The position numbers and the translations under genes were made by a program. DNA of 64,000 nucleotides, taken from contig NZ_CP097218.1 in assembly GCF_023373525.1 (NCBI RefSeq), forward strand, positions 1,550,001 to 1,614,000, read 5' to 3'. Below, in pieces: positions 48,520 through 50,703 of the stretch; the stretch's first letter is position 1; the number at the start of each line of letters is the position of its first letter. Origin of the DNA: Brachybacterium kimchii. GTDB lineage: Bacteria; Actinomycetota; Actinomycetes; Actinomycetales; Dermabacteraceae. The notes under the pieces were generated by a model. The model was not told the origin of the DNA. It did no database searches and saw only the letters and a program-made list of their open reading frames with translations.

Positions 48520-48672
48520 CCAACATTCAATATGACAGAGGCCTGGCGCACACCGGTTTCGTCACCAGCGAACACCAGGGGGCCGCTGCGCCGGTTCCCA
48601 GGGGCAGATGCGGCGTGCGCCCTGCGCGGTCGCGCACTCCGCGGGAGCCCATCCACTCCTAGGATGATGTAC

Positions 48673-50703
48673 ATGTCAACCACGCCGCTGCGCCTGCTGC
48701 TCGTCTCGCTGCACACCTCCCCGCTCGCAGTGCCCGGCAGCGCCGATGCCGGCGGCATGAACGTGGTGGTCCTCGAGCAGGCGCGCGCCCTCGCCGCGGC
48801 CGGCCACCAGGTCGACATCGTCACCCGCCGCAGCGATCCCGACGCGCCCGCGATCAGCTCGGTCACCCCGCGCCTGCGTCAGGTCCTGCTGCACGGCGGC
48901 CCCGCGACGCCGCTCGCCAAGAGCGCCATGGAGCAGGCCATCGAGCCGTTCTCCGCGGACCTCGAGCGCCTCGTGTCCGACGCCGAGCAGGCCGGGGAGC
49001 CGTACTCCCTGATCCACTCGCACCATTGGTTCAGCGGCGTGGCCGCGCTCCCCGTCGCCCATCGTCATCAGCTGCCCCACCTGCAGTCCTTCCACTCCGT
49101 CGCGGCCCCGGAGGGCTCGACCACGCTGGGCGCCGGAGAACCCGCCGAGTCCGCGGGCCGCATCCCCGGCGAGCGCCGCACGGCGAGGGAGTCCCAGCTG
49201 GTCATCGCCGTCTCCCAGGCCGAGGCCCGCACGGTCCGCGAGCGCTACGGGGTCCCCTCGGACCGCGTGCTCGTGGTCCCGCCCGGCGTGGACACCGCGC
49301 GCTTCCATCCCTCGCCCCTGAGCGCCCGCGAGCGTCTGGAGGAGCCCACGATGCTGTTCGCCGCGCGGCTGCAGCCCCTCAAGGCGCCGGACCTCGCCCT
49401 CGACGTGCTCGCCCGGCTCGACGCGTCCTTCGCCGCCCGCCTGGTGCTCGTGGGCGCCGCCTCGGAGGACTTCGCGGCCTATCGCGCGGAGCTCGAGGAG
49501 TCCGCCCGCTCGCTCGGCCTCGCCGACCGCGTCTCGTTCGCCGGCTCCATGGACCAGGACGAGCTCGCCGCCCGCATGCGCGAGGCCGCCGTCCTCCTGC
49601 TGCCCAGCTGGTCGGAGACGTTCGGGCTCGTCGCCCTCGAAGCGCAGTCCAGCGGCACCCCGGTGGTCGCCTGGGACCGCGCGGGCGGCGTGCAGGAGGC
49701 CGTGGGCCCCGGCAGCCGGCTGATCGCCGGTCGCGACCCCGACGTCTGGGCCGAGGCCGTCGAGTCCCTCATCGGCGAGGAGGCCGCTTTCCAGGAGGCC
49801 TCGCGCGCCGTGCGCGCCTTCGCCGAGACCCGCACCTGGCAGGCCTGCGCCCATCACCTCGAGCGGATCTACCGGGCCGTCGTCCACGGCGGCGCCGCCC
49901 ACGGCCCGTCGGACCCCTGGCACCTGGTGCGCACGGCCGGCACCGTGCTGGCCGTGCACGCCCATCCCGACGACGAATCGCTCGCCACCGGTGCGCTGCT
50001 GGCCGACCTCTCCTCGCGCGGCACCCGCGTCGTGGTCGTCACGGCGACCCGTGGTGAGGAGGGAGAGGTCGTCCCCGGGGCGATCGCCGAGGACGACGAG
50101 CGCCCGCTCGAGGAGGTCCGCGCCCAGGAGGTGCGCCGCGCCCTCGGGGCGCTGGGCGTCGATGAGCACCACATGCTCGGCGAGGCCCCGGCCCTGGCCG
50201 AGGGCGCCGCACCCCGGAGCTACCGCGACTCGGGCATGCGCTGGGTGCGCGACGGCGTCGCCGGTCCGTCGGAGAGCGCGGGGCCGACGAGCTTCACCCA
50301 TCAGGATCTCGACCAGGAGATCGCGGACCTCTCCGCGCTCATCGCGCACGTGCGTCCCGACGTGGTCCTCGGCTACGACGACCAGGGCACCTACGGGCAC
50401 CCCGACCATCTGCGCGCGCACGAGGCGACGGCCGGGGCGGCGCGCGCGCAGGGCGTGCCGTTCGTCGAGGTCGCGAGCGAGCCCGACCCCGAGGCCCTGG
50501 CCGGCGGAGAGCCCTTCGCCTTCCGCGACCAGCCGGGCTCGGCGTCCGCCCTCGGCGCCGCGCTGCGCGCCTATCGCACGCAGCTCACGGTGGTCGGCGA
50601 GCTCGAGGGCGTGCCGGGAGGTGTGCGCGTGCGACACGTCGGGGGTCAGATCCAGGACGTGCCGCTGCGCACCGGTCTGCGGATCCCGGCCGAGAGCGAG
50701 TGA
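48673..50703 (+). CDS. Predicted bifunctional MshA-MshB fusion: glycosyltransferase plus GlcNAc-inositol deacetylase
   Basis: A 676-residue protein joining two mycothiol steps. Residues 1 to about 415 are a GT4 enzyme with the MshA-type GGMNVVVLEQARALAAAGH loop, PPGVDTARFHP, and the E-x7-E motif (E315/E323 in SETFGLVALEAQSSGTPVV). From about residue 420 is a PIG-L-family zinc hydrolase with HAHPDDES at 429-436 and TYGHPDH with H576, plus TRGEEGEVVPG and YRDSGM, which match MshB. MshA makes GlcNAc-inositol-phosphate, and MshB deacetylates the dephosphorylated product. The reading frame is continuous with no stop between domains. ATG at 48673 is favoured over two ATGs just upstream because AGGA lies before it. 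MshC and MshD are not in the window. Confidence 0.82.
   Translation: MSTTPLRLLLVSLHTSPLAVPGSADAGGMNVVVLEQARALAAAGHQVDIVTRRSDPDAPAISSVTPRLRQVLLHGGPATPLAKSAMEQAIEPFSADLERLVSDAEQAGEPYSLIHSHHWFSGVAALPVAHRHQLPHLQSFHSVAAPEGSTTLGAGEPAESAGRIPGERRTARESQLVIAVSQAEARTVRERYGVPSDRVLVVPPGVDTARFHPSPLSARERLEEPTMLFAARLQPLKAPDLALDVLARLDASFAARLVLVGAASEDFAAYRAELEESARSLGLADRVSFAGSMDQDELAARMREAAVLLLPSWSETFGLVALEAQSSGTPVVAWDRAGGVQEAVGPGSRLIAGRDPDVWAEAVESLIGEEAAFQEASRAVRAFAETRTWQACAHHLERIYRAVVHGGAAHGPSDPWHLVRTAGTVLAVHAHPDDESLATGALLADLSSRGTRVVVVTATRGEEGEVVPGAIAEDDERPLEEVRAQEVRRALGALGVDEHHMLGEAPALAEGAAPRSYRDSGMRWVRDGVAGPSESAGPTSFTHQDLDQEIADLSALIAHVRPDVVLGYDDQGTYGHPDHLRAHEATAGAARAQGVPFVEVASEPDPEALAGGEPFAFRDQPGSASALGAALRAYRTQLTVVGELEGVPGGVRVRHVGGQIQDVPLRTGLRIPAESE

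Follow-up and report, generated by a model that had tools for sequence, protein, structure and literature searches.

A fused MshA–MshB protein of Brachybacterium and its probable role in mycothiol synthesis

The fused gene and its domains

The window analysed here, a 64,000-nucleotide stretch of the Brachybacterium kimchii genome, contains an open reading frame (48673..50703, + strand) for an MshA–MshB-type protein of 676 amino acids, assigned from domain models and from orthologous frames in relatives. The translation of 48691–50703 is free of stops, and with the ATG at 48673 as start the whole protein lies in a single frame. The direct neighbours, a methyltransferase and an ADP-ribosylglycohydrolase gene, are both on the opposite strand, so that the fused gene is probably transcribed alone; no Rfam matches were found near it. 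Seven nucleotides before the ATG lies a −10-like hexamer, TAGGAT (48660..48665, +), and TANNNT is present 6–7 nt 5′ of the start in nearly all mshA or fusion genes of the Dermabacteraceae, fused or split. Across these genes the hexamer is a probable promoter of a leaderless mRNA, and its conserved spacing supports the ATG at 48673 as the start codon.

The original prediction of an uninterrupted frame joining an MshA-like GT4 glycosyltransferase to an MshB-like deacetylase is borne out by Pfam and NCBIfam as well as by the orthologues. Pfam places Glyco_transf_4 and Glycos_transf_1 at residues 21–364 and PIG-L at 420–583, while the top NCBIfam model is TIGR03449 (MshA, 2.5e-82), followed by TIGR03445 (MshB, 3.3e-38) and, more weakly, Mca. 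The MshA-type domain spans about residues 1–405 (48673..49887, +) and covers positions 1–404 of the 406 in TIGR03449, its 276.9 bits being under the equivalog cut-off of 462.5. The MshB-type PIG-L zinc deacetylase domain, about residues 418–676 (49924..50700, +), aligns to just the first 157 of 284 positions of TIGR03445 and scores 132.2 bits, under the equivalog cut-off of 224.35, against 91.3 bits with the Mca model. The BshA and BshB models score far lower on the fused protein (73.9 and 38.9 bits). Its closest solved sequences are Corynebacterium glutamicum MshA (3c4q) for residues 1–399 and Mycobacterium tuberculosis MshB (1q74/4ewl) for residues 419–591, and a Foldseek search with the model of the fused protein found both MshA and MshB structures. 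Between the domains lies a linker of about residues 406–417 (49888..49923, +), at the site of the ATGA stop/start overlap in relatives. In the AlphaFold model (mean pLDDT 88, pTM 0.62) the two domains are confident and their mutual arrangement is not; the linker, with pLDDT below 50 at residues 407–412, is predicted to be flexible.

Judged by alignment, the catalytic residues of both domains are intact. Equivalents of C. glutamicum MshA D20, GGMN, K78, R154, R231, K236, E316 and E324 are retained, the last two being the donor/catalytic glutamates E315 and E323 (49615..49641, +); we take the donor and catalytic roles of the MshA residues to be those assigned from structure work on 3c4q. The inositol-phosphate site of MshA presumably consists of K78, Y110, T134 and R154. 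The K78 and R154 equivalents are invariant in the MshA alignment, whereas Y110 is replaced by H and T134 by S, both of which read as conservative changes. The MshA-type proteins of the Dermabacteraceae and of the families f13 and f19 form a coherent subfamily with this H/S pair. Its member in the window falls below the TIGR03449 cut-off, and automatic annotation may miss such proteins.

In the deacetylase domain, alignment to M. tuberculosis MshB H13, D15 and D16 assigns the zinc ligands H431 and D434 and the general base D433 to the motif HAHPDDE (residues 429–435; 49957..49977, +), and the motif YGHPDH (50392..50409, +) supplies Y574, H576 and the zinc ligand H579, matching Y142, H144 and H147. 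Equivalents of E47, R68, D95 and M98, which we take to be substrate residues, are likewise all present, and this set of zinc and substrate residues is also kept in the fused relatives and in nearly all split ones. The motifs originally read from the sequence (E315, E323, GGMNVVVLEQ, and HAHPDDES at 429–436) are in place as described. H576, named alongside them, is the H144 equivalent; the alignment gives the zinc ligands as H431, D434 and H579.

Distribution and origin of the fusion

The fusion occurs in 9 of 47 Dermabacteraceae genomes, seven of Brachybacterium and two of genus g27; in most of the others mshA and mshB are separate and adjacent. The 31 split pairs that were inspected comprise 29 of Dermabacteraceae and one each of Propionicicella and f19; all except those of G040 and G062 show a 4-nt overlap (ATGA or GTGA) with mshB in the −1 frame. 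The search for single GT4–PIG-L proteins that the original prediction called for thus succeeded within the Dermabacteraceae, and beyond the family it returned none from samples of 396 genomes of the order and 396 of the phylum. Viral contigs and phage and plasmid collections held no fused relative. Three apparently full-length fused matches (L061, L062 and L064) were rejected as split overlapping genes. The last of these is from Propionicicella superfundia (Propionibacteriaceae), which is therefore not a case of fusion; its locus (L064 5001–7030) carries a Dermabacteraceae-type mshA–mshB pair with the same 4-nt overlap and 57% and 50% identity, possibly acquired by horizontal transfer.

Other arrangements were also seen. 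The deacetylase gene precedes the glycosyltransferase gene in G065 (L117 3001–4997), while in G062 (L115 4192–4207) both genes are in the same frame with TAA between them, possibly a broken fusion. Two near-complete Brachybacterium genomes, G048 (L171 6089–7560) and G008 (L170 5058–6325), are devoid of both genes. The genes on either side of the site in G048 lie near each other, as a clean deletion would leave them; G008 retains mshC over the cut-off, and both genomes carry genes for a mycothione-reductase-like (Mtr-like) protein.

The same fused frame is found in B. subflavum and B. halotolerans (97% identity each), in B. endophyticum (80%), in G045 (64%) and in the one-contig genome G004 (62%), so that the stop or frameshift at the junction that might have undone the original prediction does not occur. 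Nei–Gojobori dN/dS within the B. kimchii clade is about 0.08–0.22 for the glycosyltransferase part and 0.16–0.24 for the deacetylase part, with lower values in g27. Both domains are under purifying selection.

On a maximum-likelihood tree built from the two domains without the linker, the fused and split states require four changes. A single clade of all fused rows is rejected (p-AU 1.9e-67), also when G004 is removed (p-AU 0.004). G004 is surrounded by split species at a distance of about 0.1 changes per column, and a deletion of tens of bases at its junction has taken out the overlap. There appear to have been at least three independent fusions: in the clade of B. kimchii, in G004, and in g27 and/or G005, the latter a fragmented draft. 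Repeated reversal to the exact ATGA overlap is implausible.

The remaining mycothiol pathway

Mycothiol is the protective thiol of actinobacteria. A family-by-family search of the 4.35 Mb Brachybacterium genome located mshC (513.6 bits) and mshD elsewhere, both over their cut-offs, as the original prediction had proposed to look for. Further, the genome encodes a true Mca (397.6 bits) and an Mtr-like protein, whose 588.6 bits fall short of the 635.65 required by the cut-off. Profile searches detected neither a second MshA, the next-best match after the fusion reaching 142 bits, nor a second MshB; the sole other MshB-like match, L017 (201 bits), was discarded in that role because it is the Mca. 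Separate mshA and mshB genes, which would have spoken against the fusion, are therefore absent from this genome. With mshC, mshD and Mca present, no protein other than the fusion is a candidate for either of the two steps. The literature yielded no record of mycothiol for Brachybacterium.

Function and reasons for fusion

A single-chain MshA–MshB protein is well supported at the level of sequence: both domains are present with their full sets of catalytic residues, the genome lacks separate copies, and mshC, mshD and Mca lie elsewhere in it. For its substrates, activity and benefit we infer the following. The N-terminal domain would catalyse step 1 of mycothiol synthesis, the transfer of GlcNAc from UDP-GlcNAc to inositol phosphate, and the C-terminal domain step 3, the conversion of GlcNAc-inositol to GlcN-inositol. 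Dephosphorylation by a separate phosphatase probably intervenes, so that no direct hand-over of product would be expected, although local concentrations may rise. The ancestor was presumably a 4-nt overlapping, probably translationally coupled mshA–mshB pair. Termination–reinitiation at the overlap would already couple the synthesis of both proteins in most relatives, and small frame-restoring changes may have removed the stop/start overlap to give the fusion. This would make the pre-existing coupling absolute, a fixed 1:1 output being most likely its main effect.

The original prediction had left a choice between channelling of the intermediate and a fixed ratio of the two activities. Channelling finds no support in the linker, which is predicted to be flexible, or in the acceptor-phosphate residues, which are largely kept, whereas a fixed ratio fits better with an ancestral arrangement that was overlapping and probably coupled. 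Subunits of heteromeric complexes are over-represented among genes with short overlaps (PMC10666635). Collectively, we hold with good confidence that the gene encodes a single-chain enzyme for steps 1 and 3 of mycothiol synthesis, derived from an overlapping pair and providing fixed output rather than channelling.

Alternatively, the fusion could be a neutral by-product. A single small deletion is enough to fuse overlapping genes, so that fused proteins would arise often and could persist without benefit while their domains work as before. Most relatives have the overlap, the several origins left different linkers, the linker is flexible and the genes have stayed unfused in most species, all of which agree with such a history. 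However, fusions have persisted through deep divergence in the B. kimchii clade (64–97%) and in g27 with linker and domains intact. We place this explanation a little short of an even chance. It is compatible with the biochemistry of the fixed-output enzyme and differs on why the fusion exists; the present data agree both with neutrality and with a mild benefit.

The acceptor and the phosphatase step

Inositol-phosphate synthase (Ino1), probed with PF01658, was absent from the genome of B. kimchii and from 17 other Dermabacteraceae genomes and present in one, G066. It was detected in no tested member of the family with this gene type, nor in the f19 genomes with a related MshA, despite the mycothiol genes that these genomes carry, whereas the C. 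glutamicum control and families with canonical MshA gave matches; PF07994 had been discarded as a probe since this control gave none. The f13 genomes possess the H/S form of MshA together with Ino1. Without Ino1, these bacteria must scavenge inositol, produce it by some unrecognised route or do without it, and the absence of the enzyme makes mycothiol production by the strain a real question.

These observations raise the possibility that the acceptor is different or unphosphorylated, for example imported myo-inositol. Transfer and deacetylation would then be consecutive, no phosphatase would be needed and the fusion would make direct chemical sense, by analogy with BshA and BshB of bacillithiol synthesis. 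Besides the missing Ino1, the altered Y110 and T134 positions point this way, as does the fact that the phosphatase acting between MshA and MshB has never been identified (PMC7278568; PMC2834668); further, two Brachybacterium species have been reported to lack genes for making phosphatidylinositol (PMC6090031). However, the invariant K78 and R154 equivalents argue against this reading, and imported inositol could be phosphorylated. Moreover, the H/S form also occurs in the Ino1-bearing f13 genomes, so that these conservative changes are not tied to the loss of Ino1. A different or unphosphorylated acceptor is unlikely. Improbable, too, is a broader proposal for the Dermabacteraceae: mycothiol, or a close analogue of it, would be built on scavenged inositol that carries no phosphate and is accepted by the divergent MshA domain, the phosphatase would have dropped out, and the repeated fusions would join truly consecutive steps. 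Given that the residues of the phosphate site are either retained or replaced conservatively and that the H/S form coexists with Ino1 in f13, inositol phosphate is moderately favoured as the acceptor. The same residues make it probable that a phosphatase still has to act, and they lend no support to direct channelling.

In many split Brachybacterium a convergent gene of the endonuclease/exonuclease/phosphatase family lies between mshAB and the ADP-ribosylglycohydrolase gene (e.g., L088 5428–5760). It was rejected as a candidate for the missing phosphatase, since two species without mshA and mshB retain it and it was not found beside the fusion in B. kimchii or B. endophyticum.

The absence of Ino1 could also mean that the protein serves another glycoconjugate pathway, such as that of a cell-surface sugar. 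GT4 and PIG-L domains are versatile, and both scores are under the equivalog cut-offs. Nonetheless, the models and solved structures that fit the two domains best are those of MshA and MshB, the MshB substrate residues are kept, and no other candidates exist for the two steps in a genome with mshC, mshD and Mca; a role outside mycothiol synthesis is thus quite improbable. Finally, a sequencing or assembly error, which a single indel could produce given that the relatives' genes lie in different frames, is refuted by the same continuous frame in five independent genomes of 97, 97, 80, 64 and 62% identity, by the deletion of tens of bases at the G004 junction and by in-frame substitutions under purifying selection.

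Comparison with known systems

The MshA–MshB protein is a real, recurrent and functionally coherent fusion within the known mycothiol pathway, one of the major thiol pathways of bacteria. It appears to be undescribed so far: no description turned up in open-access full text, in line with the original prediction, which knew of no example. A single family offers a natural series from overlapping to fused genes with several independent origins, and hence a test case for physical cooperation between MshA and MshB. Together with the absence of Ino1, the fusion opens the long-missing phosphatase step to a direct test.

With the separate MshA (TIGR03449; 3c4q) and MshB (TIGR03445; 1q74/4ewl) the fusion has in common the domain folds, the catalytic and metal residues and the remaining pathway genes; it differs in being one chain, in its H/S-type acceptor site and sub-cut-off scores, and in a shorter C-terminal part of the deacetylase. 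A further counterpart is the split mshA–mshB pair of most Brachybacterium, which has the same locus, domains of about 60% identity, a DPWxLL-like segment ahead of the deacetylase and the TAGGAT start region, but encodes two proteins, with mshB in the −1 frame behind an ATGA or GTGA overlap. The bacillithiol enzymes BshA and BshB follow a homologous GT4 and PIG-L logic, GlcNAc transfer and then deacetylation, yet they use malate as acceptor, need no phosphatase step and are separate proteins. Similarly, the bifunctional glutathione synthetase GshF (PMC7278568) unites two enzymes that make a low-molecular-weight thiol, although the enzymes and the thiol are unrelated, and the steps joined in GshF are consecutive whereas those of MshA and MshB are probably separated by a phosphatase step.
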